A stretch of 64,000 nt of DNA from Rhizobium sp. RU33A (lineage in GTDB: Bacteria; Pseudomonadota; Alphaproteobacteria; Rhizobiales; Rhizobiaceae): positions 248,001 to 312,000 of the forward strand of contig NZ_FTMQ01000004.1 in the NCBI RefSeq assembly GCF_900156055.1, given 5' to 3'. The translations under genes and the position numbers were made by a program. Shown one piece after another: positions 3,829 through 20,592 of the stretch. The notes under the pieces were generated by a model. That model was not told where the DNA came from. It worked only from the letters and a program-made list of their open reading frames with translations, and made no database searches. Every line of letters starts with the position of its first letter. Positions within the stretch are counted from its first letter, which is position 1.

Positions 3829-3873
3829 GCTGCCGCCAAACAACGACATGAAAAGACGACTGGGAGGACAAAG

Positions 3874-4845: not shown

Positions 4846-4859
4846 GAATTTCCCAAGGT

Positions 4860-4891
4860 GGGGGTGCCGCGAATGGCATCCCCTTTTTTTT
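4860..4891 (+). terminator. Rho-independent terminator after the sugar permease
   Basis: GGGGGTGCC (4860-4868) pairs with GGCATCCCC (4875-4883) with one G-U pair, followed by eight T residues. It lies only 36 bp before the zinc dehydrogenase start, so it may work as a partial terminator inside a longer operon. Confidence 0.8.
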
Positions 4892-4926
4892 CGTCAAACC
4901 TTGCCGGGCAGCCGAAAGGAATAAGC

Positions 4927-5943: not shown

Positions 5944-5954
5944 TGGCCGGGACG

Positions 5955-5988
5955 AAAAAAGGCCCGCAGCTCTGTCTGCGGGCCTTTG
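5955..5988. terminator. Bidirectional terminator between convergent genes
   Basis: AAAAAA precedes GGCCCGCAG (5961-5969), which pairs perfectly with CTGCGGGCC (5976-5984), then TTTGT. It separates the dehydrogenase from the convergent esterase and can serve both strands. Confidence 0.85.
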
Positions 5989-6006
5989 TGTTTCGTGTGC
6001 GTGATA

Positions 6007-6615
6007 TCAGTGCTTCTGCAGGAAGGCGGCGATCGCATCGACCTCGCCTTGCGAAACTTCGTGGCCGCCTTGATGCAGGAAGGTCTCTACCTGAGCGCCT
6101 TGCGCCTCGAAATAGGCCGTCAGCCGCTCGGTCAGCGGCAGCGGGCAGATTGGATCTCGCTGGCCGGCAGTCACGAGCACCGCAACATCCGAAAGCCCAG
6201 GCTGTGCCGGTGGATCGAACGGGATCAGCGGATGCATCAGGATCACGCGGTCGAAGAGATCAGGCGCTCCGAACAGAACGGAGGCCAGAATGTTGGCACC
6301 ATTCGAGTAACCGAGCCCATAGATCGGGCGATCCGGGTTCTTTTGCTTGTGAGCGCGGATAAAGGCCGCCATCTGGACCGTCCTCTCTGCGAGATCGGCC
6401 ATGTCATAGACACCTTCGCCGGTGCGCTTGAAAAAGCGCGCAGCGCCGTATTCCGATACGTCGCCGCGTGGCGAGACAATGCCGGCTTCCGGCAGGATCT
6501 GCTTCACCAACCCCGGAAACTGATGTTCATCTCCACCGGTGCCATGGAAGGTGAAGACCAGCGGTGCGGCACCCTCTGGTGCCTGGTAGAGGTGGATGTA
6601 GCTGTCGAGTGCCAT
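6007..6615 (-). CDS. Alpha/beta hydrolase, MhqD-like phospholipase/carboxylesterase family
   Basis: The ATG at 6615 is chosen because GGAGGAAAGC lies just upstream on the minus strand; a longer frame would need a GTG inside that site. The 202 residues hold a complete serine hydrolase triad: S104 in GYSNG, D154 in 'GQRDPICP' and H185 in 'HQGGHE'. 'FTFHGTGGDE' forms the oxyanion loop. It follows the ring-cleaving dioxygenase gene in the same direction. The same enzyme pair occurs in the Bacillus mhq loci for quinone and methylhydroquinone detoxification, so this esterase probably acts on a ring-cleavage product. That role is inferred from the pairing. Confidence 0.82.
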   Translation of the reverse strand: MALDSYIHLYQAPEGAAPLVFTFHGTGGDEHQFPGLVKQILPEAGIVSPRGDVSEYGAARFFKRTGEGVYDMADLAERTVQMAAFIRAHKQKNPDRPIYGLGYSNGANILASVLFGAPDLFDRVILMHPLIPFDPPAQPGLSDVAVLVTAGQRDPICPLPLTERLTAYFEAQGAQVETFLHQGGHEVSQGEVDAIAAFLQKH

Positions 6616-6670
6616 GATGCTTTCCTCCACAAGAGGGGGCGACGCCGTCAGTCATCGCCCCGCTATGCGA

Positions 6671-7603
6671 TTAGTCCTTGATCGGGGTCAGATGGGCTTC
6701 GATCTGCGAGCGATACTGCTGGTAGCGGGTCGGCAGCTTCAGCGCCTCGCCGAGATGAGCGGTATCTTCGTCACGGTTGAAGCCAGGTTCGTTCGTGGCG
6801 ATTTCGAACAGCACACCACCCGGCGTGCGGAAATAGATCGCCCAGAAGTAATCACGGTCGATGACCGGCGTCACCTGGTACCCCGTGTCGAGCAGCGCTT
6901 TGCGCACTTCGAGCTGTGCCGCACGGTCTTCCACGGCAAAGGCGACGTGGTGCACCGAACCTGCACCCTGCTGGGCATACGATGCGCCCGGCAGTACTTC
7001 GAGATCGATATAGTCGGCGCCATTGCCGCCGGTGACCGCATAGCGAACGAAGTCACCCTGTTTGTCGACCGGCTGGTAGCCCATGAACTTCAGGAGTTCG
7101 CCGGTCGCACCTTCGTCGCGCAACCGCATGGTCACGCCGCGGAAACCATGAACACCTTCCGAAACGCCAACCGGACCGCCAGCGAAGGGCACGCGGCTGT
7201 CGCCATCGACTTCGGCAAGGGCAAAGCCATCGCCATCGGGACCGGCGAAACGCAGGCGGTCTTCACCGAAGAGCGAATAGGAGCCAACCTCCTTCACGCC
7301 TTCCTTCGACAGGCGCTCCTGCCAGAAGCCGAGCGTGCCCTTTGGCACAGAGAAGACGGTCTCCGACACTTCACCTGCGCCACGACCGCCCTTGCCCATA
7401 TTGGCGAAGGGGAAATAGGTCATGACCGAGCCGGCATTGCCGACTTCGTCGCCGTAATAGAGGTGGTAGACATCGGGCGCGTCGAAGTTGACGGTCTTTT
7501 TGACCCGGCGAAGGCCAAGCGTCTTGGTGAAGAAGTCGTTGTTTTCTTGGGCATCCGCGGCCATCGAGGTAACGTGATGCAGGCCTTTGATCTGGGTAAG
7601 CAT
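6671..7603 (-). CDS. Ring-cleaving dioxygenase, MhqO/MhqA-like (vicinal oxygen chelate fold)
   Basis: The 310-residue protein has two glyoxalase/VOC modules. The first opens with 'IKGLHHVTSMAAD' (metal-ligand His near residue 9). The second carries 'SVHHVAFAVED' and 'PGGVLFEIATNEPGF', which provide the other His and Glu ligands. Length and motifs match the extradiol-type dioxygenases linked to hydroquinone resistance. An AAAGGATC ribosome-binding site precedes ATG 7603. The gene is divergent from a LysR regulator across 123 bp and heads a two-gene unit with the esterase. The substrate is likely an aromatic diol or quinol. Confidence 0.85.
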   Translation of the reverse strand: MLTQIKGLHHVTSMAADAQENNDFFTKTLGLRRVKKTVNFDAPDVYHLYYGDEVGNAGSVMTYFPFANMGKGGRGAGEVSETVFSVPKGTLGFWQERLSKEGVKEVGSYSLFGEDRLRFAGPDGDGFALAEVDGDSRVPFAGGPVGVSEGVHGFRGVTMRLRDEGATGELLKFMGYQPVDKQGDFVRYAVTGGNGADYIDLEVLPGASYAQQGAGSVHHVAFAVEDRAAQLEVRKALLDTGYQVTPVIDRDYFWAIYFRTPGGVLFEIATNEPGFNRDEDTAHLGEALKLPTRYQQYRSQIEAHLTPIKD

Positions 7604-7687
7604 GGCTCTGATCCTTTCCCGGCAGTCGCGCCGGTCTTGTTCTGTTGGACGGAATATGGGCCATGGCTTTTCTGTTGTGAACAGTTG

Positions 7688-7704
7688 TAATATTGCGGAT
7701 ATTA
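7688..7704 (+). promoter_or_regulatory. LysR-type binding site in the divergent promoter region
   Basis: TAATAT-N5-ATATTA is a perfect inverted repeat with T and A at the outer positions of the T-N11-A type. It lies 23 bp before the LysR start and 85 bp before the divergent dioxygenase start. It is the only strong symmetric element in this AT-rich gap, so it likely serves autoregulation and control of the dioxygenase-esterase unit. Confidence 0.65.
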
Positions 7705-7726
7705 TTTCACTGGGAGCAATAATCCG

Positions 7727-8638
7727 ATGGGCGAGCTCGAAGCGATCAGAACCTTCCTCACGGTTGCCGACCAGAGCAGCTTCAGCGCCGCAGCCCGCCG
7801 CCTCGGCATGACACCAGCCTCGGTCACCCGAACGGTATCGAGCCTTGAAGAACAGCTCGGGGTTCAGCTGCTGTTGCGGACCACGAGAAAGGTCTCCCTG
7901 ACCTCGGCGGGCGCCGCTTATGCTGCACGCGTCGCACCGCTGGTCAAGGGCCTTGCTCGCGCAACCGAGGAGACCCGGGATCTACAGAAGGTCACGGCGG
8001 GCTCGCTTCGCGTCTCGGCCCCGATGTCGCTAGGCATGAAAGTCCTGCCGACCGTCCTGTCTCAGTTTTCCATCATCCACGCGCGCACAAGTGTGGCGAT
8101 CGAGCTGTCCGACCGTTTCGTCGACATTGTGCAGGAAAACTACGATCTGGCGATCCGCATCTCGGGTCCACCGACCGACAAGTCGACGATCTGGCGCAAG
8201 ATCCGTCCGGTTCCGAGGGTCCTGGTCGCCTCCCCCTCGTTCCTCGCCCGCAACGGCACCCCGAAGGTGCCGGAAGATCTGACGACGCTCGAATGCCTGA
8301 GCTATCACGACCAGTCAAAGACCGAGACTTGGGAACTCAGCCGGCCCGGACAGAGCCGCATCGTGGAAGCCAAAGGACGCTTTTCGATCAACAACGGCGA
8401 TTTCCTTGGTCGGCTTGCCGTCGCGGGAGAGGGAATTGCCCTCCTCCCGCGGTTCATCGTTGAGGAAGATCTCGCCGCGGGCCGACTGGTGGAGGTGCTC
8501 CCCGACTGGAGCACGCCGGAAATCTGGCTGACGCTCTACTATCCGCCTTACGAACAGCTGCCGCTCAGGGTCGCGACCTTCTCGGACTTCTTCGAAGCCT
8601 TCATCAAGGAAAGCTGGGACGCTGGACGGAGCGCCTGA
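7727..8638 (+). CDS. LysR family transcriptional regulator
   Basis: The 303-residue length is typical. Residues 1-60 form the winged helix-turn-helix ('FLTVADQSSFSAAARRLGMTPASVTRTVSSLEEQLGVQLLLRTTRKVSLT'), and the rest is a substrate-binding-like effector domain with 'SLRVSAPMSLG', 'YDLAIRISGPP' and 'GEGIALLPRFIVEEDL'. It is divergent from the dioxygenase-esterase pair and shares a palindrome with it, so it is the probable regulator of that pair. In Bacillus the comparable genes are controlled by a MarR protein; here a LysR protein holds the place. Confidence 0.9.
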   Translation: MGELEAIRTFLTVADQSSFSAAARRLGMTPASVTRTVSSLEEQLGVQLLLRTTRKVSLTSAGAAYAARVAPLVKGLARATEETRDLQKVTAGSLRVSAPMSLGMKVLPTVLSQFSIIHARTSVAIELSDRFVDIVQENYDLAIRISGPPTDKSTIWRKIRPVPRVLVASPSFLARNGTPKVPEDLTTLECLSYHDQSKTETWELSRPGQSRIVEAKGRFSINNGDFLGRLAVAGEGIALLPRFIVEEDLAAGRLVEVLPDWSTPEIWLTLYYPPYEQLPLRVATFSDFFEAFIKESWDAGRSA

Positions 8639-8644
8639 CCAAAA

Positions 8645-9331
8645 TCAGCGGTCGCGCCCGAGAAATTCGCCGATTTCCTGCGCAATACGGTCTGTCGCGA
8701 TAGACACGTCTACCTTCTTGACCTTCTCGAAGAGCGGCTCGGGGATGGCAGCCTTGCGGGCCTCCGCCAGCCCCTCGAAGAAGCGCGGCGAAAATTCCGG
8801 ATGCGGCTGATAGGAAAGACCCCAGTCGCCGTAGCGGATGACGGCGTTCTCGCAGGTGTCGGTCTTGCCGACGACTTCGGCTCCCTCGGGTACCTTGATC
8901 ACCTGGTCCTGATGCCAGGCAAGCAGCACTTGCTCTTCGCCCGTATCGGAGCGCTTGTAGGTCACCGGACCGGCAGACCAGCCGCCCTTGAACTTCTCGA
9001 CATGCCCGCCGAGCGCCTTGGCCATGACCTGGTGCCCGAAACAGATGCCGACCATGGGCACCTTGGCCGCATGCACCTGGCGAATGAAATCCTCAAGCTT
9101 GCGGATCCAATCATGGTCCTCGTAGACGCCGAACTTGGAGCCGGTCAGCAGCCATCCGTCGACCTCGGTCGGACTTTGCGGGAACTCGCCGTCAACGACG
9201 AAGTAGCGCTTGAACGAGAAGTCGAAATCGCCCAGCAGCGCGGCGAACATATCGGCGTAATTGCCATACTCGCTCGCGAGTTCGGCGGGTGAGTGACCCG
9301 TAACGAGAATGCCGATGGTCTTGGCGGTCAT
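8645..9331 (-). CDS. Class I glutamine amidotransferase-like protein
   Basis: ATG 9331 is chosen because CAGGAAG lies 7 nt upstream and the family-typical 'MTAKTIGILVTGHSP' begins there; the open frame extends to 9412. The 228 residues contain the catalytic triad of the class I glutaminase fold: C97 in GICFGHQ, H177 and E179 in 'YQPHPEFS'. It is a stand-alone amidotransferase domain like those of the GuaA/gamma-glutamyl hydrolase type. No synthase partner lies nearby, so it may hydrolyse gamma-glutamyl compounds or supply ammonia to a distant partner. A GntR gene is divergent from it. Confidence 0.82.
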   Translation of the reverse strand: MTAKTIGILVTGHSPAELASEYGNYADMFAALLGDFDFSFKRYFVVDGEFPQSPTEVDGWLLTGSKFGVYEDHDWIRKLEDFIRQVHAAKVPMVGICFGHQVMAKALGGHVEKFKGGWSAGPVTYKRSDTGEEQVLLAWHQDQVIKVPEGAEVVGKTDTCENAVIRYGDWGLSYQPHPEFSPRFFEGLAEARKAAIPEPLFEKVKKVDVSIATDRIAQEIGEFLGRDR

Positions 9332-9403
9332 GTGGGCTTCCTGAAACATGCGAAAAGAGCGGCCTTGGGGCCTTGCACTCCGTCCATCTATACCAAATGC
9401 TAG

Positions 9404-9413
9404 TTTGATCAAA
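9404..9413 (+). promoter_or_regulatory. Palindrome TTTGATCAAA in the divergent gap, candidate GntR operator
   Basis: A perfect 10-bp palindrome lies between the divergent amidotransferase and GntR genes, 73 bp upstream of the former's start and 76 bp upstream of the latter's. FadR-type GntR proteins often bind short symmetric AT-rich sites of this kind. The assignment rests on symmetry and position only. Confidence 0.45.
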
Positions 9414-9488
9414 TTTCAAGAGGGTGCACGGCTATTCAGCACGCCCTGACCACGATAGCAGCGAAAAGGCGGGATCTCGATCTGAACC

Positions 9489-10166
9489 ATGACATTTGAA
9501 GAGGGCAAGGCTGAAAAATCGTTGAAGCAGCGGGTCTACTGGACATTGCGCAGCCGTGTAATGTCCGGCGCAGTCGCTCCCGGCCTGCCGATCACCATCA
9601 ACGGTGTCGCCGAAGACCTGGCCGTCAGTGCCATGCCGGTGCGAGAAGCGCTGCATCGTCTCGTGGCCGACGGAGCCCTGGAATATCTCGACAACCGCCG
9701 GGTCCGCGTGCCGGAAATGACGCTTTCCAAATTCGAGGAGATCATTGCCGCCCGCATCGCGCTCGAGACACTCGCGGCAACCAGGGCCTTGCCGCATATC
9801 GACGCCGACCGGCTCGAACGTCTGCAGGTGATCGATACCGCGATCGACGACGCCTATGCGGCGAACGATCTGCTGCGTTCGACGGAACTCAACTTCCTTT
9901 TCCATCGTACGCTTTACGAGCCCGGAGCCAGTGGTGTCCTTCTCGATCTGATGGAGTCCGTCTGGTTGCGTCTCGGCCCGTTCATGCGGCTTGCCACGGC
10001 CAAGCTGGAAGAAAGCTACCGAATTGACCGGCATGCCGAGGCACTGGAGGCGATCCGGGCCAGGGATACAGTCGCGCTTTCGGCCGCAATCGAGGCAGAC
10101 ATTCAGGATGGGGTAGGCCACCTCGGGCGGCACTTCCTAAAGGAAGCAACTGTCGCCGCCCGATGA
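9489..10166 (+). CDS. GntR family transcriptional regulator, FadR subfamily (FCD domain)
   Basis: The 225-residue protein has an N-terminal winged helix ('LRSRVMSGAVAPGLPITINGVAEDLAVSAMPVREALHRLVADGALEY', about residues 18-65) and a C-terminal all-helical FCD effector domain with 'ARIALETLAA' and 'NFLFHRTLYEPG', whose Asp/His residues normally bind a metal. Such proteins repress catabolic genes until an organic acid binds. It is divergent from the amidotransferase gene and convergent with the P-type ATPase gene, so the amidotransferase is the nearest candidate target. Confidence 0.9.
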   Translation: MTFEEGKAEKSLKQRVYWTLRSRVMSGAVAPGLPITINGVAEDLAVSAMPVREALHRLVADGALEYLDNRRVRVPEMTLSKFEEIIAARIALETLAATRALPHIDADRLERLQVIDTAIDDAYAANDLLRSTELNFLFHRTLYEPGASGVLLDLMESVWLRLGPFMRLATAKLEESYRIDRHAEALEAIRARDTVALSAAIEADIQDGVGHLGRHFLKEATVAAR

Positions 10167-10196
10167 TCTGTCGCGCTTGATGCACCGGGACGAGCG

Positions 10197-12902
10197 TCAG
10201 CCCCGATTGCGGAATGCCAAACGCATCTGCTTTTCAATTTCCACGAGAGCGAAGAACACGGCACCGATCCCGACGATCAGCAACCCGTCCTGCAGGGGAA
10301 CGCTGTGCGTCCCGAACAGGGATTGCATGAAGGGCAGATAGGTGACGGCGAACTGGGCAACCGTTACCGAGATCACGCAGATCCAGACGACCTTCGTCCC
10401 GCGCACGGCCTGCCAGGTGAGCGATGTTCCGTAGATATTGCGGATGAAGAAGACATGGAAGATTTCCATGACGACCAAGGTGTTCATCGCCATCGTGCGT
10501 GCGAGCTCAATCGGATAACCCCTGTCCAGCGCGTAGAAGAAAATTCCGAAAACCGCAGCGGCAAAGAGTACGGAAACAAGCAGGACATGCCAGATGAGGT
10601 CGCCGGTCAAAAGCGGCTCGTCCCGCCGGCGCGGTGGTCGCCGCATGGTACCCTCTTCCGATGGCTCGAAGGCAAGCGCCAATCCGAGCGTAGTCGCCGT
10701 GACCAGATTGATCCAAAGGATCTGGACGGCCGTGACTGGGAGCGTCAGGCCGGCAAAGAGCGCAACAATGATGGTTCCCGCTTCGCCGGCATTCGTCGGC
10801 AGGGTCCAGCTGATCACTTTCTTGATGTTGTCGTAGACAGTCCGCCCCTCGCGCACTGCGGCGGCAATAGAGGTGAAGTTGTCGTCCGCCAGAACCAGCT
10901 CGGCTGCTTCCTTGGCTGCTTCGCTGCCCTTCACACCCATTGCGATGCCGGCATCGGCCCGCTTGAGGGCCGGCGCATCGTTGACACCGTCACCGGTCAT
11001 GGCGACCGTCAAGCCCTGGGACTGGAGCGCGGTGACCAGCCGCAACTTGTGAGCCGGCGAGGTTCGAGCAAAGATGTCGGTCTCGGCTGCGGCGAGCGAT
11101 AGCGTGGCATCGTCCATCCGGTCCAGATCCGCTCCGGTCAGCACACGATCGGTGTTCTTGAGCCCGATCATTCCGGCGATCGCCCGGGCCGTCGCAGCAT
11201 GGTCGCCAGTAATCATCTTCACCCGGATGCCCGCCTGATGGCAGTCGGCGACCGCGACAATCGCTTCCGGGCGCGGCGGATCGATCAGGCCCACCAGGCC
11301 GATCAACGTCAGCGTGCCGGAAAGCTCGGTCTGGACAAGACGGGCACCGCTCTCTGGGGGAGCGCCTATGGCAACCGCAAGCACGCGCTGCCCTTCGGAG
11401 GCAAGGACCTCGACCATGTTTTCCCAATAGGGCGCGTCGAGTTGTGCCGACGAACCATCGGGCATGCGCTGGGTGGCGCAAAGATCGAGAACGGCCTCTG
11501 GTGCACCCTTCACATGGACATGCCTTTTGTTTTCGTCGTCGACATGAAGGACGGCCATATAGCGATGCGCGGCATCGAAGGGGATGGCATCGATCCGCCG
11601 CCAACCTGCGGTGAAGGGATCACTGCCGCCCCCGGTGATCTTGCCCGCAAGCGCCATCAAGGCCCCTTCCATGGGGTCGCCTTCCACCCGCCAGGCGCCA
11701 TCAGCCGAATGCAGCACGGCGTCATTGCAGAGCCCGGCGGCACGCGCGAATTCGGAGAGAACCGCGTGGTCTTGCGGATCGACATCCGCGTCATTCCAGC
11801 GGACGGCACCTTCCGGTGCGTAGCCTTCTCCATCCACGGCATAGACATGGCGCGCCGCTACAAGGCTTGCGACCAGCATTTCGTTGCGCGTCAGCGTACC
11901 GGTCTTGTCCGTGCAGATCACGGATACCGAACCCAGTGTCTCGATCGCCGGCAGCCGTCGAACGATCGCATGGCGACCAGCCATCGCCTGGACACCGACG
12001 GCAAGTGTGATCGTCATGACCGCAGGGAGACCTTCCGGGATCGCTGCGACAGCGAGACCGACAATCGTCATGAACAGTTCATCGAAAGGCAGATGCCCGA
12101 CAACCAGTCCGTAGGCGAGCAGCATGCCGGAAATGATCAGGATGAAGAGGGTCAGCCAACGTGCGAAGACATCCATTTGTCGAACGAGCGGCGTCGAGAG
12201 AGTCTCGACGGCCTCCAGCATCCCACTGATCTTGCCGATCTCCGTTGCCATGCCAGTCGCAACGACGACACCCTTGCCCGTCCCCGTGGCAACCAGCGTT
12301 CCGCTGAACAGCATGGAACTGCGATCACCCAGAACGGCATTGGCCGAGACGGCTTCATGGGTCTTGTCGACAGGCACCGATTCACCCGTCAGGGCCGCCT
12401 CCTCGACCTTCAGGCTTCGCGCTTCCAGCAGTCGCAGATCCGCGGGAACGCGATCTCCAGCCTCGACCAGCACGATATCACCCGGCACGAGATCGGCGGC
12501 GTTGACGGAAGTCCGGCGGCCGTCACGCAACACCGCGGCATGCGGCGCCAGCATGACCCTGATCGCATTCATCGCATCTTCGGCGCGACCTTCCTGCAGA
12601 TAACCGACGACGGCATTGCCCAAGACGACCGCAACGATGACGCCCGTATCGATCCAGTGCTGCATGAATCCTGTGACCGCTGCGGAAGCCAGCAGGACGT
12701 AAATCAAGACATTGTGGAAATGCGCCAGGAAGCGGACGACAGCGCTGCGCCTTGGTGTTGCAGGCAGACGATTGGCGCCATGGACCTCCAGCCTTCGCTT
12801 GGCCTCCTCTGCCCCGAGCCCCGCGACATCCGTATCCATCGCCTGGAGCACCACCTGCGGCGGCAGGGCATGCGGCATCAAATCTGCGGTTCTGTCGTTC
12901 AT
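10197..12902 (-). CDS. Cation-transporting P-type ATPase (P2 type, calcium-ATPase-like)
   Basis: The 901-residue protein has the complete P-type ATPase layout: N-terminal cation ATPase domain (1-75), actuator TGES (172-175), transmembrane PEGLP (289-293), phosphorylation site DKTGTLT (D332) and hinge TGDGVNDAP. Six C-terminal membrane segments follow, ending in a cytosolic tail. PEGLP and the P2 architecture match calcium/SERCA-like and PMR1-like pumps rather than heavy-metal pumps; the N-terminus has no metal-binding domain. AGAGGA precedes ATG 12902. It stands alone, convergent with the GntR gene. The ion (Ca, Mg or Na/K) cannot be fixed from sequence. Confidence 0.9.
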   Translation of the reverse strand: MNDRTADLMPHALPPQVVLQAMDTDVAGLGAEEAKRRLEVHGANRLPATPRRSAVVRFLAHFHNVLIYVLLASAAVTGFMQHWIDTGVIVAVVLGNAVVGYLQEGRAEDAMNAIRVMLAPHAAVLRDGRRTSVNAADLVPGDIVLVEAGDRVPADLRLLEARSLKVEEAALTGESVPVDKTHEAVSANAVLGDRSSMLFSGTLVATGTGKGVVVATGMATEIGKISGMLEAVETLSTPLVRQMDVFARWLTLFILIISGMLLAYGLVVGHLPFDELFMTIVGLAVAAIPEGLPAVMTITLAVGVQAMAGRHAIVRRLPAIETLGSVSVICTDKTGTLTRNEMLVASLVAARHVYAVDGEGYAPEGAVRWNDADVDPQDHAVLSEFARAAGLCNDAVLHSADGAWRVEGDPMEGALMALAGKITGGGSDPFTAGWRRIDAIPFDAAHRYMAVLHVDDENKRHVHVKGAPEAVLDLCATQRMPDGSSAQLDAPYWENMVEVLASEGQRVLAVAIGAPPESGARLVQTELSGTLTLIGLVGLIDPPRPEAIVAVADCHQAGIRVKMITGDHAATARAIAGMIGLKNTDRVLTGADLDRMDDATLSLAAAETDIFARTSPAHKLRLVTALQSQGLTVAMTGDGVNDAPALKRADAGIAMGVKGSEAAKEAAELVLADDNFTSIAAAVREGRTVYDNIKKVISWTLPTNAGEAGTIIVALFAGLTLPVTAVQILWINLVTATTLGLALAFEPSEEGTMRRPPRRRDEPLLTGDLIWHVLLVSVLFAAAVFGIFFYALDRGYPIELARTMAMNTLVVMEIFHVFFIRNIYGTSLTWQAVRGTKVVWICVISVTVAQFAVTYLPFMQSLFGTHSVPLQDGLLIVGIGAVFFALVEIEKQMRLAFRNRG

Positions 12903-13293
12903 CCCAGTCCTCTGCGCATTTCGATTGTCGAACAGGCCCGCTGAAGAATGGCCTCGGCAGCCCTTGCGGGCACTGCATCTCTGCTGACGTGCGGGAGAAT
13001 GTCGTCAGGATAGGCCTCTCGCCTTGATCTATGACAATTCTGGACGATGCCGGCCTCGGCTTTGCGCCTCGAACGCCTGTCGGCGAGAACCAACCGGGAG
13101 GTGTGGAAGCACAGGCTCAGGCAAGCCTTGCATCTTAAAAGCAGGTCGTCCTGCGCGATGTCCACAGAACCGCCGGGAAGGACTTTGTGCCGGAAGGTGT
13201 TGAAAAGGTTGAGACGTATTGCCTCGATCGGCTGCATGCCAACCGGTGGAACACATTTGAGCACATTCGTTTCAGAACAAGAGGCCGATAGCG
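12903..13293. other. 391-bp intergenic region between the P-type ATPase and the octad-repeat gene
   Basis: No gene is supported here. Short frames exist on both strands but lack ribosome-binding sites and recognisable motifs. The region must hold the divergent promoters of the two flanking genes. The only element I can point to is an EcfG-like promoter near its right end (13248-13271). Confidence 0.5.
13248..13271 (+). promoter_or_regulatory. EcfG/RpoE2-like promoter candidate for the octad-repeat gene
   Basis: GGAAC (13248-13252) is followed after 15 bp by CGTT (13268-13271). The general-stress consensus in Alphaproteobacteria is GGAAC-N16/17-CGTT, so spacing is one base short. The -10 element ends 22 bp before the ATG, and an AAGAGG ribosome-binding site lies between. 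A near match, not a proven promoter. Confidence 0.35.
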
Positions 13294-16200
13294 ATGACGT
13301 CGATTTCCCTGCTCAGCCCAGCCCAGATCCGGGCGCTCCCCAACTCGACGGTTAGCTCCTGGTCAGACGACGAAATCAGCCAGCTGTCGAGCACGCAGGT
13401 CGGCGCCCTGACGTCGTCCCAGATCTCGGCGCTGCAGACAGAAGCCGTCGCAGGCCTGTCGACGTCGCAGTTGAAGGCAATCGCGCCCCGTTCGATCACC
13501 GGCCTGACGCTGGACCAGATCACCGCCCTGTCGACCGAAGATGTTTCAAGTCTGGTCGTCTCACAGATCGCGGCACTGTCGGCAAGCCAGCTTGGCGGTC
13601 TGTCTTCCGAGCAGTCTGAAGCCTTGACACCGGCACAGGTCGCCAGATTGACCGCAACGCAATTGAGCGCCTTCAGTACTGAAGATCTCGCGACGTTTTC
13701 TCCGGAAGACATGGCCGCGATCAACACGGCTGCCTTGAGAGGGCAATCTCCCGAAAGACTGGCGGGCCTGAGCACGACACAGATCGCGGCCTTGAAGCCG
13801 AACCATATCGCGACGCTCACGCCGACCCAGATCGCAGCGCTCACCCCCGCGCAAGTCGGCGCCTTCTCGACCCAGCAGATGGCAGCCCTGAGTGCAACCC
13901 AGGTTGCAGTGCTGAGCTCCGACCAACTTGGCGCGCTCTCCGCGACGCAAGTCGCGGCCATTTCGCCGCGCGCGATCACTGGCCTCTCGACCACACAAAT
14001 TTCAGGTCTGGGCAATGAAAAAGTCGGTGCGTTGACCGCCGCGCAGATGGCAACGCTGACCTCGAAGCAACTGCCCGCGTTCAGCACCGAACAGGTGGCC
14101 AACTTCTCGACGAGCCAGATTGCGGCGATTAACCCACGCGCCATGTCGGGTCTTTCGGCAGACCAGATCGCGGCTTTGTCGCCGGATCAGATGGCAAGCC
14201 TCACCGGCACGCAGATCGCCGCTCTCACCCGCACACAGATGTCGGCCTTCAGCGACGACCAGCTGGCGGCACTCACCGCAACGCAGATCAGGGCGCTGAG
14301 CGCGACGCAGATCGCGGCCATACCGCCAGCGACCGTCGCAGGCTTTACCGCAACCCAGATCGCGGCTCTCACACCGAAGGCCGTCGCCGGACTGAATGCC
14401 GATCAACTCGCGGCATTGAGTATCGATCAGCTCAAGGGGCTCAGCACCTCTCAGGTCGCTGCCATGACCGCAACCCAGATCGGCAGCCTGTCGAGCGACA
14501 AGGTCGCTGGTCTTTCGCCGGCCCAGATCGGTGCGTTGAGTTCCTCTGCCGTCACGGGCCTTACGCCTTCGCAGATCTCCGCCCTGACCCCTGCTCAGAT
14601 CGGGGCAATGTCGAGCTCGCAGATCTCTGCCCTGAAGACCACACAGGTCGCGGCCTTCACGGCAGACCAGATCTCCGGGTTGACGCCGACACAGATCCGC
14701 GGACTGACCGGCCCACAGATCGCTGCCATGTCCGAGAACTTCATCACGGGCTTCTCCGAGGACCAGATCGCAGCCTTGAGCGCGCGCGCTATCGCCGGAA
14801 TGACGGCCGACCAGATTGGCGCGCTGTCGATGGATCAGCTCGATGCATTGAGCACCAGCCAGATCAGCGCGCTGAACGCCACCCAGATCGCGGCGATACC
14901 GGGAGAGGCCATTGATGCGATGAGCCCGGCGAAGATCGCAGCCATCAGTGCAAAGGCGATCACCGGTCTGACGTCGGAGAACCTGGCGTCGCTCGCGCCG
15001 ACCCAGATCGCAGCCTTGACCGTCACCCAGATCAAAGGCCTCAAGGCCGATCAGGTCTCCAGTCTGACGGCATTCCAGACCGAAGCGATGACCAACAGTC
15101 AGATCAGCGCATTGACGGCGGCACAGCTGTCGGCTCTGTCGGTCAACGCCGTAAAGGCATGGTCACCCTCCCAGATCGGCGCCATCTCTTCTGCTTCGAT
15201 CAGTGGACTGACCACTGATCAGATCACCGCGCTGAATGACAGCCAGATCGACGGTCTCACCGCAGCACAGATTTCACGGATGAATGGGCCGCAGATCGGC
15301 GCCCTGTCCAAGGAGCAGCTTGCAGCCTTGCTTCCGACCGAAATTGCGTCGATCTCCGCCAGCGCCGTCTCATCGATTTCGGCTGACAAGATCGACGGTT
15401 TGAGCCTGGAGCAGATCGCAAGGCTGACCACGGCTCAGATTTCGGCGATGAAAAGCGAGCAGCTGGTCGCCTTCACGCCCACGCAGCTTGCATCCTTGAG
15501 CTCCACCCAGCTGCAAGCCGTAACCTCCGCCCAGATCGCAGCGCTCTCTCCGAGCAACATCGCATCGCTTTCACGCGAGCAGATTGCCAGCCTCTCCGCA
15601 CGCAGCATAGCGTCTCTGAGCACAGAACAGATCGCCGCCATGTCCGCCGATCAGATCGACGCCATGACGGCGACCCAGATTTCGGGCCTCACGGCAAGCC
15701 AACTCGACGCGATGCGCAAGGCTGATATTCTCGCTTTCCTGCCGGCCGAGATTGCAGCGATCAACCCCGGCGCCTTGAGCAGCCTTGATGCGGAGACCAT
15801 CGCGGCACTCAGCATCGACCAGATCGCCGCCATGACCCCGGCACAGCTGGGCGCTCTGAGCGCCGACCAGGTCGCAGCGCTTACGCCAACCCAGCTCGAT
15901 GCAATGAGCGCAAAACAGTTGGCAGGCTTTGGTGCAACGCAGGCGAAGGCGCTGACGACAGCGGCGCTGGGCGCGTTGACGCCGGAACAGATTGCCGGCC
16001 TGAGCACAGCCGCGATTGCCGCGCTCTCGACCACCCAGATCGCAGCCCTGTCGACAAACCAGATCGAAGCGCTGAACACCGCGCAGATGGGCGCGTTGAC
16101 GGCGGCACAGGTGGCCGCGCTGACGCCGACCCAGCTGAGCAACCTGCCGGCAGCGAAGCTGGCAGCGATCAGTGCAACCGGCATAGCCGGACTGACCACC

Positions 16201-17544
16201 CAGCAGATCGCTGGTCTCGGTTCGGACCAGATCAGTGCCTTGACCGCGGCGCAGATCGCCGCCTTGACACCGGAACAGGTCGGCGCAATGACGCCCCAGC
16301 AGGTCACGCTCCTGTCGAACACCCAGATCGCAGCCTTGGGCGCCACTCAGGTCGCCGCACTGTCCAACGACAGTCTGGCCACTCTGACGAGCGAGAAAAT
16401 CGCGGCACTGACAGTCAAGGCAATCCCTGGCCTGACGGCGACACAGATCGCCTCCATGTCGACCACGCAGATCGAAAGTCTGAGCCAGACCCAGATTGCC
16501 GCGCTCACCTCGACACAGATCGGAGCACTGTCGTCGGCACAGTTGGCAACCTTCTCCAACGCTGAACTCGCCGCGATCGCTCCTGCAGCGATTCCCGGAC
16601 TATCGGCAGGAAACATCGCTGGCTTGAGCCAGGAGCAGATAGGTATCCTCACCGCCGCCCAAATCGGTGCCTTGACCTTCGATCAATTGAACGCGCTACG
16701 TCCGGATCAGCTGGGCGTCATGACCCCGACCCAGATCGGAGCCCTGACGGCGACCCAGCTCGCTTCGCTGTCGGCGGGGACCATTTCCGGTCTGACCACC
16801 ACCCAGATCGCAGCCATTTCGACCAAGGCCATCCCCGGCCTGAGCACGGCGCAGATCGCAACGCTGACCGCCAGCCAGATCGATGCGATGACATCGGCGC
16901 AGTTCGGTGCTCTGAGTGCCAACCAGTTGTCAGCATTCAGTCCGACAGCACTCGAAACGCTGACCTCTGCGGACATAGCGGCCCTCTCGCCGAGTGCGGT
17001 AGGGGGGCTCTCGCCGGCGGTCTTCGCTACACTGCAGCCAGAGCAGATCGCATCCCTGACAACGGGTCAGGTGGCAGCGCTGAGCTATCACCAGCTTCGA
17101 GCGATGACCCAGGATCAGATCGGCGCCATGACGCCGGCACAGATCGGGGCGATGAATGCCGTCCAACTGGCAACACTGGGAACAGACCGGGTCGGCTGGC
17201 TGACAACGGATCAGATCTCGGCCATGGATCCCAAGGCAATTGGCGGTTTGAGCGTGGCCCAGGTCAGCGCCCTCACGGCCGCCCAGGCGGAAGCCTTGAC
17301 ACCTGCACAGGTCGCAGGGCTCAGTTCGACGCAATTGACGGCCATGGGCGCGAACAACCTGCGGACCTTCTCGGCCGAGGACCTGGCAGCCATCAGTCAG
17401 CAGGCGATCCCGGGGCTGACAGTCAGCCAGATCTCCAACATGACGTCATCGCAGCTTCAGGCGATCACGACGACACAGTCCAACTACCTGAGCCCGGACC
17501 AGATTGCCGCCGTGCTCGCGGCTTACCAAGCGGCTGGATCCTGA
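13294..17544 (+). CDS. Giant octapeptide-repeat protein (1416 aa, repeats only), no recognised family
   Basis: The product consists of 6 leading residues, 175 back-to-back octads and a 10-residue tail (ending AAYQAAGS). The octad consensus is L-[ST]-x-x-Q-[IV]-x-A, for example LTPTQIAA or LSTTQIAA. Register is unbroken over 1400 residues. Composition is dominated by A, S, T, L, Q and I, with no cysteine and few aromatics. There is no signal peptide, membrane segment or other domain. [ST]-x-x-Q with frequent Pro after the S/T looks like a helix N-cap, so each octad may begin a very short helix, but a beta-solenoid is not excluded. An AAGAGG ribosome-binding site precedes ATG 13294. It is monocistronic, convergent with phnF. 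Function unknown; a structural, surface or scaffold role is a guess. Confidence 0.9.
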   Translation: MTSISLLSPAQIRALPNSTVSSWSDDEISQLSSTQVGALTSSQISALQTEAVAGLSTSQLKAIAPRSITGLTLDQITALSTEDVSSLVVSQIAALSASQLGGLSSEQSEALTPAQVARLTATQLSAFSTEDLATFSPEDMAAINTAALRGQSPERLAGLSTTQIAALKPNHIATLTPTQIAALTPAQVGAFSTQQMAALSATQVAVLSSDQLGALSATQVAAISPRAITGLSTTQISGLGNEKVGALTAAQMATLTSKQLPAFSTEQVANFSTSQIAAINPRAMSGLSADQIAALSPDQMASLTGTQIAALTRTQMSAFSDDQLAALTATQIRALSATQIAAIPPATVAGFTATQIAALTPKAVAGLNADQLAALSIDQLKGLSTSQVAAMTATQIGSLSSDKVAGLSPAQIGALSSSAVTGLTPSQISALTPAQIGAMSSSQISALKTTQVAAFTADQISGLTPTQIRGLTGPQIAAMSENFITGFSEDQIAALSARAIAGMTADQIGALSMDQLDALSTSQISALNATQIAAIPGEAIDAMSPAKIAAISAKAITGLTSENLASLAPTQIAALTVTQIKGLKADQVSSLTAFQTEAMTNSQISALTAAQLSALSVNAVKAWSPSQIGAISSASISGLTTDQITALNDSQIDGLTAAQISRMNGPQIGALSKEQLAALLPTEIASISASAVSSISADKIDGLSLEQIARLTTAQISAMKSEQLVAFTPTQLASLSSTQLQAVTSAQIAALSPSNIASLSREQIASLSARSIASLSTEQIAAMSADQIDAMTATQISGLTASQLDAMRKADILAFLPAEIAAINPGALSSLDAETIAALSIDQIAAMTPAQLGALSADQVAALTPTQLDAMSAKQLAGFGATQAKALTTAALGALTPEQIAGLSTAAIAALSTTQIAALSTNQIEALNTAQMGALTAAQVAALTPTQLSNLPAAKLAAISATGIAGLTTQQIAGLGSDQISALTAAQIAALTPEQVGAMTPQQVTLLSNTQIAALGATQVAALSNDSLATLTSEKIAALTVKAIPGLTATQIASMSTTQIESLSQTQIAALTSTQIGALSSAQLATFSNAELAAIAPAAIPGLSAGNIAGLSQEQIGILTAAQIGALTFDQLNALRPDQLGVMTPTQIGALTATQLASLSAGTISGLTTTQIAAISTKAIPGLSTAQIATLTASQIDAMTSAQFGALSANQLSAFSPTALETLTSADIAALSPSAVGGLSPAVFATLQPEQIASLTTGQVAALSYHQLRAMTQDQIGAMTPAQIGAMNAVQLATLGTDRVGWLTTDQISAMDPKAIGGLSVAQVSALTAAQAEALTPAQVAGLSSTQLTAMGANNLRTFSAEDLAAISQQAIPGLTVSQISNMTSSQLQAITTTQSNYLSPDQIAAVLAAYQAAGS
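13312..17511 (+). repeat. In-frame array of 175 degenerate 24-bp units encoding octads
   Basis: Every 24 bp encodes one octad, residues 7-1406 of the protein. The core CAG-ATC (Gln-Ile) recurs in phase through most units, while third positions and variable codons differ. The array is therefore old and protein-selected, not a recent identical tandem expansion. No insertion or deletion breaks the 24-bp phase. Confidence 0.92.
13720..17391 (+). repeat. Nine 408-bp super-repeats (17 octads each) within the octad array
   Basis: Octads that lack the usual Gln recur with a period of 17. Super-repeats start at 13720, 14128, 14536, 14944, 15352, 15760, 16168, 16576 and 16984; a tenth partial copy starts at 17392. 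At position 1, Ala replaces Gln in 9 of 10 copies (the other is Gly). At position 11 it is Ala or Ser in 9 of 9. Position 9 is non-Gln in 8 of 9. Position 17 is acidic or Lys in 8 of 10, often after a leading Phe. Positions 12 and 14 keep Gln in all 9. Confidence 0.85.
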
Positions 17545-17554
17545 AGAGCTGGCT

Positions 17555-17577
17555 GAGGTCGGCCAGCGGCCGGCCTC
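17555..17577. terminator. Hairpin between the convergent octad gene and phnF
   Basis: GAGGTCGGCC (17555-17564) pairs with GGCCGGCCTC (17568-17577) around a 3-nt loop, with one G-U pair. It fills the 36-bp gap between two convergent stop codons. There is no U-tract, so it is a weak or Rho-assisted terminator. Confidence 0.5.
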
Positions 17578-17580
17578 ATC

Positions 17581-18300
17581 TCAGTTTCGGATTGTGAACT
17601 GCACACGATCCGCCGGGAAACGGGTAACCGCATACTGAATCGGCCAGCCTGCCGGATCGGTATTGAGCGCACGGGTCACCAGCACGATCGCACCCGGCGT
17701 CAACTCAAGATGCATGACGTCATCCGGCTCAGCGTGGACGGCCGAGATCTCGGTAACCTCACGGACGTAGTCATCGACACCACAGCGAGAGAGCGCGCGG
17801 GTGATCGAACCCGTTGCGGCGAATGCCGTGTCGATGCCAGCAAACCGCTCTGCCGGAAACCACATGGTTGAGCGTGAGACGGCACGACCATCGGCCTTTC
17901 TGATGCCATCGAGCCTCAGGACCTCGTCGCCTGGATTGAGTTTCAGGCGCTTGACGAGATCGGCAGAGGCAGTTTCGCGAGCGGACGACAGCAGGATCCC
18001 CTTGAGATCCCGCGCCTGCTCGCCGATGCCTTCGCTGAAGCGGGTACGCCTACCGATCGGAAAATCGAACTTGTCGCGCTGTGTAATCATCGTGCCGCGC
18101 CCCTGGGCCGCCCGCACAATGCCTTCTTGGGCGAGCGCCGCCAGTGCCGCGCGCACGGTGTGTCGGTTGACACCAAATTCCTCAGCCAGCGCCGTTTCCG
18201 CCGGCACCATGCCCGTCGAGTCATAGAGACCTGTCAGGATATTGGCGCGGATCCGATCGGAAATCTGGCGCCAAAGGGCGACCCCCTTCTGTCTCTGCAT
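17581..18300 (-). CDS. phnF: Phosphonate-metabolism regulator PhnF (GntR family, HutC subfamily)
   Basis: The 239-residue protein starts at ATG 18300; a preceding GTG is also in frame. Residues 8-75 are a GntR winged helix ('WRQISDRIRANILTGLYDSTGMVPAETALAEEFGVNRHTVRAALAALAQEGIVRAAQGRGTMI'), followed by a UTRA effector domain of chorismate-lyase fold ('FSEGIGEQARDLKG', 'LRLDGIRKADGRAVSRSTMWFP'). It is divergent from phnG across a 103-bp gap that holds a Pho box and two perfect inverted repeats. It most likely represses the phn operon until a phosphonate or pathway intermediate binds. Confidence 0.92.
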   Translation of the reverse strand: MQRQKGVALWRQISDRIRANILTGLYDSTGMVPAETALAEEFGVNRHTVRAALAALAQEGIVRAAQGRGTMITQRDKFDFPIGRRTRFSEGIGEQARDLKGILLSSARETASADLVKRLKLNPGDEVLRLDGIRKADGRAVSRSTMWFPAERFAGIDTAFAATGSITRALSRCGVDDYVREVTEISAVHAEPDDVMHLELTPGAIVLVTRALNTDPAGWPIQYAVTRFPADRVQFTIRN

Positions 18301-18318
18301 CACGGAAATACCGGCTCC

Positions 18319-18336
18319 CTGTCACAAGCTTGTCAC
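18319..18336 (+). promoter_or_regulatory. Pho box (PhoB site) upstream of phnG
   Basis: CTGTCAC-N4-TTGTCAC is a direct repeat of 7-mers with the 11-bp phase of the consensus CTGTCAY-N4-CTGTCAY, with one mismatch (T for C in the second copy). It lies 68 bp upstream of the phnG start, which fits PhoB activation under phosphate starvation. Confidence 0.75.
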
Positions 18337-18340
18337 GACC

Positions 18341-18365
18341 ACAAGTTACTCATACAGTAACTTGT
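18341..18365 (+). promoter_or_regulatory. Perfect 25-bp palindrome, probable PhnF operator
   Basis: The arm ACAAGTTACT and its exact reverse complement flank a 5-bp spacer (CATAC). It lies 38 bp before phnG and 40 bp before the divergent phnF start. A 10-bp palindrome ACAAGCTTGT at 18324-18333, inside the Pho box, shares the same ACAAG/CTTGT ends and may be a second half-strength site. Confidence 0.75.
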
Positions 18366-18370
18366 ATGGT

Positions 18371-18388
18371 TGTCTATATTACTAGACA
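18371..18388 (+). promoter_or_regulatory. Second inverted repeat TGTCTA-N6-TAGACA upstream of phnG
   Basis: A perfect 6+6 inverted repeat lies 15 bp before the phnG ATG, where a repressor would block the start of transcription or translation. It may be a further PhnF site or bind another regulator. Confidence 0.55.
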
Positions 18389-18403
18389 TTTCGAGGACTA
18401 ACA

Positions 18404-18874
18404 ATGGAAAAAGCCACCGACATCGATCGCGGCGCCCAGACCGCCAGGAAGCGGATCGTTGATCTGCTTGCCAGGGCCACGCTCACCGAACTTCAAGACG
18501 CCCTCACCGCCTTCGACCCGGCACCGGTTTACACCGCGCTGCGCGGCCCCGAGACCGGTCTCGTGATGGTCAAGGGCCGGATCGGCGGCGGTGGTGCACC
18601 CTTCAATCTCGGCGAAGCGACCGTGAGCCGCGCGAGCATTCGGCTCTCGGACGGCCGGATCGGTCATGGCTACCGGCTCGGAACGGACCGCAAGTCAGCA
18701 CAGCTTTCGGCCGTGCTCGATGCTGTGGCGCAGGACGAAGCAGCCCGCGCATTGCTCGAAACACGCCTCTTGACACCGCTCGAAACACGCCTCGCGACGG
18801 AAGCCGAACGGCTCGAAGCCGAAACGGCCGCCACGAAGGTCGATTTCTTCACCATGGTTCGCGGAGAAGACTGA
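18404..18874 (+). CDS. phnG: C-P lyase complex subunit PhnG
   Basis: The 156-residue protein matches PhnG: 'RKRIVDLLARATLTELQDAL' at the N-terminus, 'GLVMVKGRIGGGGAPFNLGEATVSRASIRLSDGRIGHGY' in the middle and 'TKVDFFTMVRGED' at the end. PhnG joins PhnH, PhnI and PhnJ in the core complex; with PhnI it takes part in making alpha-D-ribose 1-methylphosphonate 5-triphosphate from ATP and phosphonate. It is the first gene of the operon behind the Pho box and operator palindromes, and its stop overlaps the phnH start (ATGA), implying translational coupling. Confidence 0.94.
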   Translation: MEKATDIDRGAQTARKRIVDLLARATLTELQDALTAFDPAPVYTALRGPETGLVMVKGRIGGGGAPFNLGEATVSRASIRLSDGRIGHGYRLGTDRKSAQLSAVLDAVAQDEAARALLETRLLTPLETRLATEAERLEAETAATKVDFFTMVRGED

Positions 18875-19482
18875 TGCTCGAAATCACTGAAAGCCTCGAC
18901 GGCGGCTTCCCGGATGCCGTCACCCATGCCCAACAGGTCTTCCGCAGCGTCATGGACGCCATGGCCCGCCCCGGCAGCATCGGTTTGGTCGACGTGACCG
19001 TCGCACCACCCGCCCCGCTCGGTATCGCGGCTGGCGCCCTGCTGCTGACGCTGTGTGACCACGACACGCCGATCTGGGTCACGCCTGTTCTCGCCAAGTC
19101 CGCCCTTTCAAACTGGATCGGCTTCCACACCGGCGCCAGCCTGACCTCCACGAAGTCCGACGCAAAGTTTGCCTTCGTCGAAGCAGGCGCGCCGGTCCCG
19201 TCGCTGACACAATTTGCGCTGGGAACCCAGGAATACCCCGACCGTTCGACGACACTGGTCATCGAGGTCCCATCGCTCGAGGGCGGCAAGCCTCTGCAAC
19301 TGTCAGGCCCCGGAATTCGCGACACCGCCATCATCGCTCCGAAAGGTCTGCCCGAAACCTTCCTGCGCCAATGGGGCGACAATGGTGCCCTGTTTCCGCG
19401 CGGCGTCGACCTGGTGCTGACGGCAGGTCGACGCTTCATCGCGCTGCCGCGCACGACCAAGATCCGCGAGATGGAGGCCTGA
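18874..19482 (+). CDS. phnH: C-P lyase complex subunit PhnH
   Basis: The 202-residue protein has the PhnH opening 'GGFPDAVTHAQQVFRSVMDAMARPGSIGLVDV' and the closing 'NGALFPRGVDLVLTAGRRFIALPRTTKI'. PhnH resembles a PLP-enzyme fold without the cofactor and is needed for assembly and activity of the PhnGHIJ core. Its ATG overlaps the phnG stop, and phnI starts 3 bp after its end, so stoichiometric synthesis is likely. Confidence 0.94.
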   Translation: MLEITESLDGGFPDAVTHAQQVFRSVMDAMARPGSIGLVDVTVAPPAPLGIAAGALLLTLCDHDTPIWVTPVLAKSALSNWIGFHTGASLTSTKSDAKFAFVEAGAPVPSLTQFALGTQEYPDRSTTLVIEVPSLEGGKPLQLSGPGIRDTAIIAPKGLPETFLRQWGDNGALFPRGVDLVLTAGRRFIALPRTTKIREMEA

Positions 19483-19485
19483 GCC

Positions 19486-20592
19486 ATGTATGTAGCCGTC
19501 AAGGGTGGCGAAAAAGCCATAGCCAATGCCCACAAGCTCCTCGCCGATCGCCGCCGTGGTGACAGATCGCTGCCGTCGATGACGATTGACCAGATCGTCG
19601 CCCAGCTCGGCCTCGCCGTCGACCGTGTCATGGCCGAGGCCTCGCTCTACGACTGCACGCTCGCAGCCCTCGCCCTCAAGCAGTCGCGCGGCGACATGAT
19701 CGAGGCGATCTTCCTCCTGCGCGCCTACCGCACCACGCTGCCGCGCTTCGGCACGTCCCGTCCGATCGAAACGGCCGAGATGCGCGTCGAGCGCCGCGTC
19801 TCCGCCACCTATAAGGATCTGCCCGGCGGACAGCTGCTCGGCCCCACCTTCGACTATACCCATCGTCTCCTCGATCCCTCGCTGCTCGATGACGAGAGGG
19901 TGGATATGGGCGAGCAGCGCGAGGAAGGTCTGGATCCGGTCATGCGGGTTTCTGACATCCTTGACGGCGAAGGCCTGATCGAGCCGGATGGCGAGATGCC
20001 GGAGGATCATATCGCCGGCGACATCACCCGCGAGCCGATGGAATTTCCGATGCCCCGCGACCTGCGCCTCCAGGCGCTTGCCCGCGGCGACGAAGGCTTC
20101 CTTCTGGCACTCGGCTATTCGACCCAGCGCGGTTATGGCCGCACCCATCCCTTTGTCGGCGAAATCCGCATGGGTCTGGTCGAGGTCGAATTCGACGTGC
20201 CGGAACTCGGATTTGCGGTTTCACTCGGCGAGATCCGCGTCACTGAATGCCAGATGGTCAACCAGTTCAAGGGTTCGGCCAAGGCGCCGCCGCAGTTCAC
20301 CCGCGGCTATGGTCTCGTTTTCGGCCAGAGCGAACGCAAGGCCATGTCGATGTCGCTCGTCGACCGGGCGCTCCGCACCCAGGAATTCGGCGAGGATGTC
20401 GTGGCACCTGCCCAGGACGAGGAATTCGTAATCTCCCATTGCGACAACGTCCAGGCAACCGGTTTCGTCGAGCATCTGAAGCTGCCGCATTACGTCGACT
20501 TCCAGGCCGAACTCGATCTCGTCCGCCGTATGCGGGCAAAGCACGACGCCAACAAGACAGATCCGACCGACCTGAAGGAGGCCGCAGAATGA
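19486..20592 (+). CDS. phnI: C-P lyase complex subunit PhnI
   Basis: The 368-residue length fits PhnI. Signatures include 'MYVAVKGGEKAIANAHKLLA' at the start, 'QIVAQLGLAVDRVMAEASLYD', 'RAYRTTLPRFGTSRPI' and 'SLGEIRVTECQMVNQFKGSA'. PhnI is the nucleosidase-type subunit that displaces adenine from ATP with phosphonate in the presence of PhnG, PhnH and PhnL. The gene overlaps phnJ by 4 bp. Confidence 0.95.
   Translation: MYVAVKGGEKAIANAHKLLADRRRGDRSLPSMTIDQIVAQLGLAVDRVMAEASLYDCTLAALALKQSRGDMIEAIFLLRAYRTTLPRFGTSRPIETAEMRVERRVSATYKDLPGGQLLGPTFDYTHRLLDPSLLDDERVDMGEQREEGLDPVMRVSDILDGEGLIEPDGEMPEDHIAGDITREPMEFPMPRDLRLQALARGDEGFLLALGYSTQRGYGRTHPFVGEIRMGLVEVEFDVPELGFAVSLGEIRVTECQMVNQFKGSAKAPPQFTRGYGLVFGQSERKAMSMSLVDRALRTQEFGEDVVAPAQDEEFVISHCDNVQATGFVEHLKLPHYVDFQAELDLVRRMRAKHDANKTDPTDLKEAAE

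Follow-up and report, generated by a model that had tools for sequence, protein, structure and literature searches.

The window analysed here, 64,000 nucleotides of the 4.85 Mb genome of Rhizobium sp. RU33A (contig NZ_FTMQ01000004.1, positions 248,001 to 312,000), contains a long repeat gene with the following features and neighbours.

10197..12902, minus strand: P-type cation-transporting ATPase, the upstream neighbour, divergently oriented (Pfam)
13279..13284, plus strand: Shine-Dalgarno-like AAGAGG, 9 nt 5' of the ATG (read in the DNA)
13294..17544, plus strand: ALTTAQ-repeat protein, whole frame including stop (1416 aa; Pfam PF20080, 637 bits; dN/dS about 0.1)
13294..13311, plus strand: N-terminal lead MTSISL, 6 residues (from the division into octads)
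13294..14535, plus strand: N-terminal stretch, residues 1-414, predicted by AlphaFold2 to form a short helix per octad (pLDDT 94.3, pTM 0.81)
13312..17511, plus strand: 175 in-register octads with a 17-octad (136-residue) superperiod; the fundamental of this array fits about 3.40 octads per putative turn
16312..17535, plus strand: C-terminal stretch, residues 1007-1414, predicted by AlphaFold2 to form a short helix per octad and a 13-residue final helix (pLDDT 93.6, pTM 0.79)
17512..17541, plus strand: 10-residue tail VLAAYQAAGS, placed within the final helix by AlphaFold2 (from the octad division; 8-12 residues in orthologues)
17581..18303, minus strand: GntR/UTRA regulator, the downstream neighbour, convergently oriented, then phnG-phnH-phnI (Pfam)
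18404-20592: phnG, phnH and phnI, phosphonate C-P lyase genes

A conserved octad-repeat protein of the ALTTAQ family

The 1416 codons of the frame divide into 6 + 175x8 + 10 in a single register, exactly as calculated in the preliminary description of this DNA. Octad position 1 is occupied by L/M/I/F/W/V in 99.4% of the 175 units and position 6 by I/L/V/M/F in 97.1%, and both are hydrophobic in 96.6%, whereas 2000 shuffles of the same residues never exceeded 14.3%. Gln is found at position 5 in 69% of octads, Ser or Thr at position 2 in 80% and Pro at position 3 in 24%. Cys is absent from the protein, and no signal peptide was seen in its sequence by eye. At the DNA level repeats are weak (seven TRF rows, each of about two copies), indicating that the repetition is kept at the level of the protein. 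Of the 14 orthologous loci, 11 have the AAGAGG-like motif upstream and three (L040, L041 and L067) do not; scans for sigma-70-like promoters and terminators around the window gene found none.

The nearest named relatives of the genome among those compared are Agrobacterium albertimagni AOL15 (92% identity for this protein) and Rhizobium rosettiformans W3 (80%). Our orthologue set, window included, comprised 14 loci from 13 genomes, because two of the loci, L064 and L037, appear to derive from a single assembly. All 14 contain exactly 175 octads, with 51-94% identity to the window array in a position-by-position comparison that is gapless by construction. No substitution is seen in 428 of the 1400 columns, and octad position 5 contributes more of these than any other (124 of 175). 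The lowest identity over 10 octads was 0.38 (L041 and L067), where octad composition alone would give 0.33; that paired indels cancel out in these two loci is excluded, through gapped alignment, for L067 only. A gapped alignment of the window array with the orthologue of Rhizobium sp. AAP43 (54% identity) likewise contains no gap. Ratios of dN/dS were 0.085-0.125 in seven ortholog pairs (dS 0.33-1.65), placing the frame under purifying selection, and per octad position they were at most 0.25 wherever computable, with the minimum at position 5. The GntR regulator and phnG are present at all 13 other orthologous loci, and the cation ATPase is in the flank covered for nine of them.

Against Pfam-A the window protein matches PF20080, 'ALTTAQ repeat', with 637.3 bits (gathering cut-off 26.4; E 6.7e-197) in 62 stretches, and its octads follow the PF20080 pattern as read in the present analysis (hydrophobic residues at 1 and 6, Ser/Thr at 2, Gln at 5). 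The PF20080 model also matches one of 14 control genomes, that of Caulobacter vibrioides. A relative is found among known structures as well: PDB chain 9zem, HeliScrew4 (120 aa), was aligned gaplessly over 110 residues by phmmer (E 1.7e-19), and a profile of 15 sequences recovers it at E 1.1e-29. The statement in the preliminary description that no named family has such a layout is overturned by these two matches. The Pfam search it proposed thus returned a strong match to a repeat family; a function for that family is another matter, as the literature searched by family name, chain name and motif yielded no description of the ALTTAQ/PF20080 family or of what it does. The window gene is a real, conserved rhizobial protein of a known, functionally uncharacterised repeat family.

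Other assignments were considered and rejected. No TAL effector model was present among the seven Pfam matches and no TALE chain in the best 60 of 67 PDB matches. A leucine-rich repeat was set aside because none of the seven Pfam families (E up to 10) is of that type and AlphaFold2 shows no strand; PDB chains with leucine-rich repeats did come up when sequences were searched (E down to 8e-14), which we read as compositional resemblance. The Pfam matches to CAAP1 and SAM_3, above the curated cut-off, were likewise taken as low-complexity resemblance. Among 50,697 phage records there was a single weak match.

At both ends of the window protein AlphaFold2 predicts one helix per octad, mostly of 5-6 residues. 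An array of very short helices had been suggested before, together with a prediction near residues 1-400, and the model of residues 1-414 bears the suggestion out. The accompanying argument, that selection acts on the geometry of a regular solenoid, gains support from the count of exactly 175 octads in 13 genomes at identities down to 51%.

Length and periodicity of the arrays

The sister array on contig C8 of the same genome is 1711 residues long in seven of eight genomes, and in the six compared with the window's own genome the alignment is gapless at 62-88% identity; in the eighth (G015) it carries one insertion of exactly 136 residues, or 17 octads. Converted to phase at 3.393 octads per turn, octad counts between anchors fall into one group at 0.48-0.65 turn (63, 97, 175, 209, 212, 226, 229 and 294) and a second at 0.29-0.39 turn (286, 310, 320 and 344), in a grouping that omits eight arrays without an N-anchor, six with register breaks and arrays cut by the locus end, and for which the phase of the window's 175 was calculated manually from this constant. 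Either selection on phase or recombination between look-alike units would explain the two groups. Among the pairwise indels listed, sizes of 7, 10, 17 and 24 octads are favoured and other sizes occur too; these sizes are not independent proof, because an aligner is drawn to the same self-similarity. Total octad counts do not suffer from this bias. Register breaks were observed in arrays of G481, G392, G441, G510 and G566 and in the shorter array of G002, so not every ALTTAQ array is register-perfect.

Three genomes of the window's genus (L174, L175 and L176) share an array of 286 octads with L073, a plasmid of Rhizobium sp. ACO-34A, whose copy is 97% identical to that of G018; the likeness may reflect either transfer or close kinship of ACO-34A with G018. 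In L190, L191 and L192 (G441, G510 and G566), the short helix cap with which an array usually ends is replaced by a Ser/Thr-rich tail of about 50 residues that closes with a LIMSMLSV-type hydrophobic end.

Within the window array, octads are most alike 17 units apart (z 8.5), lags of 34, 51, 85, 60 and 10 also exceed z 4, and these lags recur in the orthologues of 51-54% identity. Leading lags are 17, 44, 34 and 27 in the 212-octad C8 sister (L032) and 27, 17, 44 and 10 in a 320-octad relative (L068). The similarity recurs at 7, 10, 17, 27 and 44 units, the numbers at which a screw of about 3.39 units per turn would return to nearly the same face. The mean spectrum of 46 arrays, which are not independent since 13 are those of the window gene and its orthologues, peaks at 0.295, 0.4105, 0.116, 0.1785 and 0.471 per octad, i.e., at harmonics 1-5 of about 0.2947, modulo 1. 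A weak extra peak lies at 0.0595 per octad, near 1/17. Spectral power by harmonic order of 0.2947 is 12.9, 12.6, 11.8, 3.4 and 2.1, and at 1/17 it is low (1.2). In a harmonic-sum fit, the best fundamental was 0.28-0.31 for 18 of 23 arrays and another frequency came top in the remaining five (L069, L117, L120, L121 and L122); 13 arrays fit 3.39-3.40 octads per turn, and L060, L123 and three arrays of G230 fit 3.43-3.44. An exact-looking period of 17 or 6 octads dominates L069, L120 and L122. In L120 (12701-18613) and L122 (14169-19007) the dominant 6-octad (48-residue) period stands over a weaker line at 0.292.

Charged residues at octad position 4 follow this periodicity. In the window array, Lys/Arg (7% of octads) concentrate at 2 degrees (R 0.91) and Asp/Glu (28% of octads) at 173 degrees (R 0.54), values that none of 2000 shuffles reached for either group, at a frequency picked from the same data. 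The corresponding angles are 7 and -178 degrees in the AAP43 array and -6 and 172 degrees in the C8 sister; in L073, the fourth array tested, each group is again concentrated, but the angle between them is 134 degrees and not 180. Taken together, the spectra suggest a repeat of about 3.39 octads, or 27 residues, per turn with Lys/Arg and Asp/Glu on opposite sides at position 4, and from this sequence periodicity we infer a physical screw of the rod. As far as we have searched, the periodicity and the charge pattern are new.

Sister arrays, a GT41 enzyme and two chemical classes

All 97 ALTTAQ matches in the genome fall within the window frame, on contig C13, and one frame on C8. The C8 array is adjoined by a TPR-GT41 protein (PF13844, E 2.3e-68), a PF12248 protein, a UDP-galactopyranose mutase and a nucleotide-sugar epimerase, and the GT41 gene (G000:C8:685746-687794) is the genome's only match to the GT41 query. 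The best PDB matches of the enzyme are XcOGT (2jlb, E 7e-75) and chains of the 110 kDa OGT subunit. On Rhizobium plasmid L069 the array has a GT41, a PF12248 protein and, by annotation, the mutase beside it, and on plasmid L073 a GT41. The PF12248 (Methyltransf_FA) proteins, of 417 residues, lie between the GT41 and the UDP-galactopyranose mutase (L032 4437-5690; L069 3759-5012). A curlin-annotated gene is present in Rhizobium sp. CCGE531 (L069 1741-2154), about 6 kb from its GT41-linked array.

The association with a close clade of this enzyme, defined by at least 47% identity and more than 600 bits, was surveyed in three genome samples, in all of which phylogeny is uncorrected. Among 60 relatives, the clade was present in 29 of 30 ALTTAQ genomes vs. 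none of 30 others (Fisher p 5e-16), and in 26 of the 29 a GT41 lies within 5 kb of an array match. In the family sample of 257 genomes it was found in 26 of 47 ALTTAQ genomes, weak matches included, vs. none of 210 others, and in the class sample of 289 genomes in four of the five with strong ALTTAQ matches (nine have any match) vs. none of 284 others. More distant GT41 proteins are common both with and without ALTTAQ. The enzyme that neighbours the sister arrays looks able to attach sugars to them.

The arrays also differ in the chemistry of octad position 3. In 30 hand-picked GT41-linked rows (many of them partial arrays beside the enzyme, with orthologous duplicates and arrays away from the enzyme excluded), the Ser/Thr fraction at this position is 0.58-0.97 with a median of 0.865, phylogeny uncorrected. 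For 16 arrays whose genomes lack the close GT41 clade (several of these genomes hold distant GT41 proteins), the median is 0.27 and the maximum 0.59, again uncorrected for phylogeny. When positions were compared in the family sample (16 v 11 loci; this 27-locus test omits L033, L049 and L148 of 30 and the second L143 array), Ser/Thr at position 3 differed by presence of the enzyme (p 8.5e-5) and at positions 2 and 4 it did not (p 0.44 and 1.0). Four genomes without the close clade, G518, G572, G409 and G584 (L137, L136, L146 and L149), have intermediate values of 0.48-0.59, possibly reflecting another modifying enzyme or recent loss. Both the GT41 link and the position-3 association are new as far as searched; among the matches listed for literature on GT41 combined with either Rhizobium or protein glycosyltransferase, no title concerned ALTTAQ.

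Arrays of the plain class are found in enzyme-bearing genomes as well, with position-3 Ser/Thr of 0.29 in the window protein, 0.30 in L121 and 0.22 in L123. Under the definition of a GT41 substrate used here, the window protein falls outside: besides its low position-3 fraction, the enzyme of its genome is on C8 and not adjacent. By composition it is of the Ala/Pro class. In G026 and Rhizobium sp. AAP43, both of which carry the window gene, no GT41 match was found, so sugar is not needed for the window member. The second arrays of these two genomes have position-3 Ser/Thr of 0.26 and 0.27. Each adjoins an ABC-F gene whose counterpart in the window's genome, 95-96% identical, is situated about 7 kb from the GT41-linked array there; the surrounding gene order is not identical. 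The common ABC-F gene points to a shared neighbourhood, in which one genome has the enzyme and a Ser/Thr-rich array and the others have a position-3-poor array and no such enzyme.

No exporter, secretion or glycosylation gene was detected by Pfam among the 10 ORFs at window positions 6614-20592, three of which had no match; type I secreted proteins do not strictly require an adjacent exporter gene. In a distant genome, L120 (G205, 3872-18613) contains a nucleotide-sugar epimerase, two GT41 proteins, an HlyD-type protein, an ABC exporter whose N-domain is C39-like at a sub-threshold score, and an ALTTAQ array in which the Ser/Thr fractions at positions 3 and 4 are 0.95 and 0.86. ORFs of similar sizes, two of them of 709 and 498 aa, occur in the same order in L122 (G286). 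A dedicated T1SS for ALTTAQ proteins was considered, but within the genus the distribution of the L120-type exporter is not that of ALTTAQ. Its relatives at 39-42% identity occur in genomes both with and without ALTTAQ and its best match in the window's own genome reaches 31%, and we therefore claim no exporter link.

A proposed screw-rod model and comparison with known systems

The window protein is most likely a structural rod. Each octad would form one short helix, capped by Ser/Thr at position 2 and filling the core with Leu at position 1 and Ile/Val/Leu at position 6, and the helices would wind as a screw of about 3.39 octads per turn, giving about 52 turns for 175 octads. In such a regular screw the presumably exposed residues of position 4 would line up in lengthwise stripes, Lys/Arg on one face and Asp/Glu on the opposite one, through which rods may pack side by side, forming a bundle or a layer on the cell surface or outside it. 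Exact length and phase would then be kept because ends and stripes must align. The Ser/Thr-rich sister rods may receive an O-linked sugar in the cytosol from their dedicated GT41, with position 3 the likely acceptor, and the window rod, in which this position is mostly Ala, Pro or another residue, would be the plain form. We regard this joint model, a long stiff rod packed at or outside the surface with sugared sisters and a plain window member, as an even call. Somewhat more doubtful is its extension to ALTTAQ proteins at large as bacterial phase-locked screw rods of 27 residues per turn that change in length only by steps preserving the helical phase (7, 10, 17, 24 or 34 octads) and exist in a plain Ala/Pro form and a cytosol-modified Ser/Thr form with one position-3 acceptor per octad.

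The charged stripes could serve another purpose. A cytosolic alpha-solenoid scaffold or adaptor, whose screw faces bind proteins in the manner of armadillo/importin-alpha, would use them as binding surfaces and not as rod-rod contacts; we think this unlikely. Equally unlikely in our estimate is that the 17-octad period is a mere scar of ancestral tandem duplication, uninformative on shape. The 17- or 6-octad periods that dominate L069, L120 and L122 and the weak spectral peak near 1/17 are in keeping with such a scar, and unequal recombination between similar units would also yield indels of 7, 10 and 17 octads. However, none of the lags 7, 10, 27 and 44 is a multiple of 17, and still they score high across arrays of differing length, and a bare 17-period gives no reason for a preference for 5/17, 7/17 and 2/17. 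Power drops instead with harmonic order of 0.2947, is low at 1/17, and shows neither 4/17 nor 6/17 among the peaks listed, while the sign of the position-4 charge follows the angle.

That the window protein is itself glycosylated, at the Ser/Thr of position 2, by the GT41 encoded elsewhere in its genome is improbable. The enzyme is indeed encoded in the same genome and 80% of octads offer such a residue, but position-2 Ser/Thr is equally high with or without the enzyme (16 v 11 loci), as fits a helix cap, position 3 is poor in acceptors, and the orthologue persists in G026 and AAP43. Least credible by far is an untranslated frame or a chance product of DNA repeats: long antisense frames do overlap 13294-17544, as expected of repetitive GC-rich DNA, but the low dN/dS in seven pairs, the Shine-Dalgarno-like motif at most loci and the weakness of the DNA repeats all argue for translation.

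The rod model can be set against several known systems. PF20080 shares the octad repeat with the window protein and nothing in the match excludes it; the match table gives no function, and the present analysis adds the 17-octad order, the constant count of 175 and the link to GT41. For a family named by Pfam whose function was not found in the literature searched, these offer a testable physical model, in which the twist of the screw may be read from sequence alone, the charged stripes lie opposite each other and the number of units is fixed. HeliScrew4 (9zem), likened here through its chain name and aligned sequence, has LTPEQIAA-type octads as in the window protein, in 120 residues vs. 1416, and is not among the best 50 Foldseek matches listed. 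In those matches a mesothelin-type spiral of short helices accounts for six of the ten best rows, and for the top six, with probability 1.00, and an idealised octad query also matches mesothelin by sequence (E 0.001). The same query matches TALE chains at E down to 1.6e-16. LTPEQVVAI-like stretches are common to TALE and octad repeats, and the TALE repeat is 33-35 residues long.

The closest parallels for the enzyme are FlmG, XcOGT and OGT, which like the neighbour of the sister arrays (PF13844) combine TPRs with a glycosyltransferase. According to the FlmG report (PMC7591256), the Caulobacter protein is cytosolic, consists of an N-terminal TPR part that binds flagellins and a GT-B part, and is required for flagellin O-glycosylation. 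By analogy, FlmG as described there is a precedent for cytosolic O-glycosylation through a TPR-GT enzyme. Its substrates are flagellins (PMC7591256), whereas the GT41 of the sister arrays adjoins a repeat rod, which it may glycosylate. If the model is true, Ser/Thr rods would be densely and regularly sugar-coated in the cytosol by a dedicated O-GlcNAc-transferase-like enzyme, and a bacterial OGT clade would have a known, highly repetitive substrate, which would help work on GT41 specificity and provide a programmable rod with a sugar coat.
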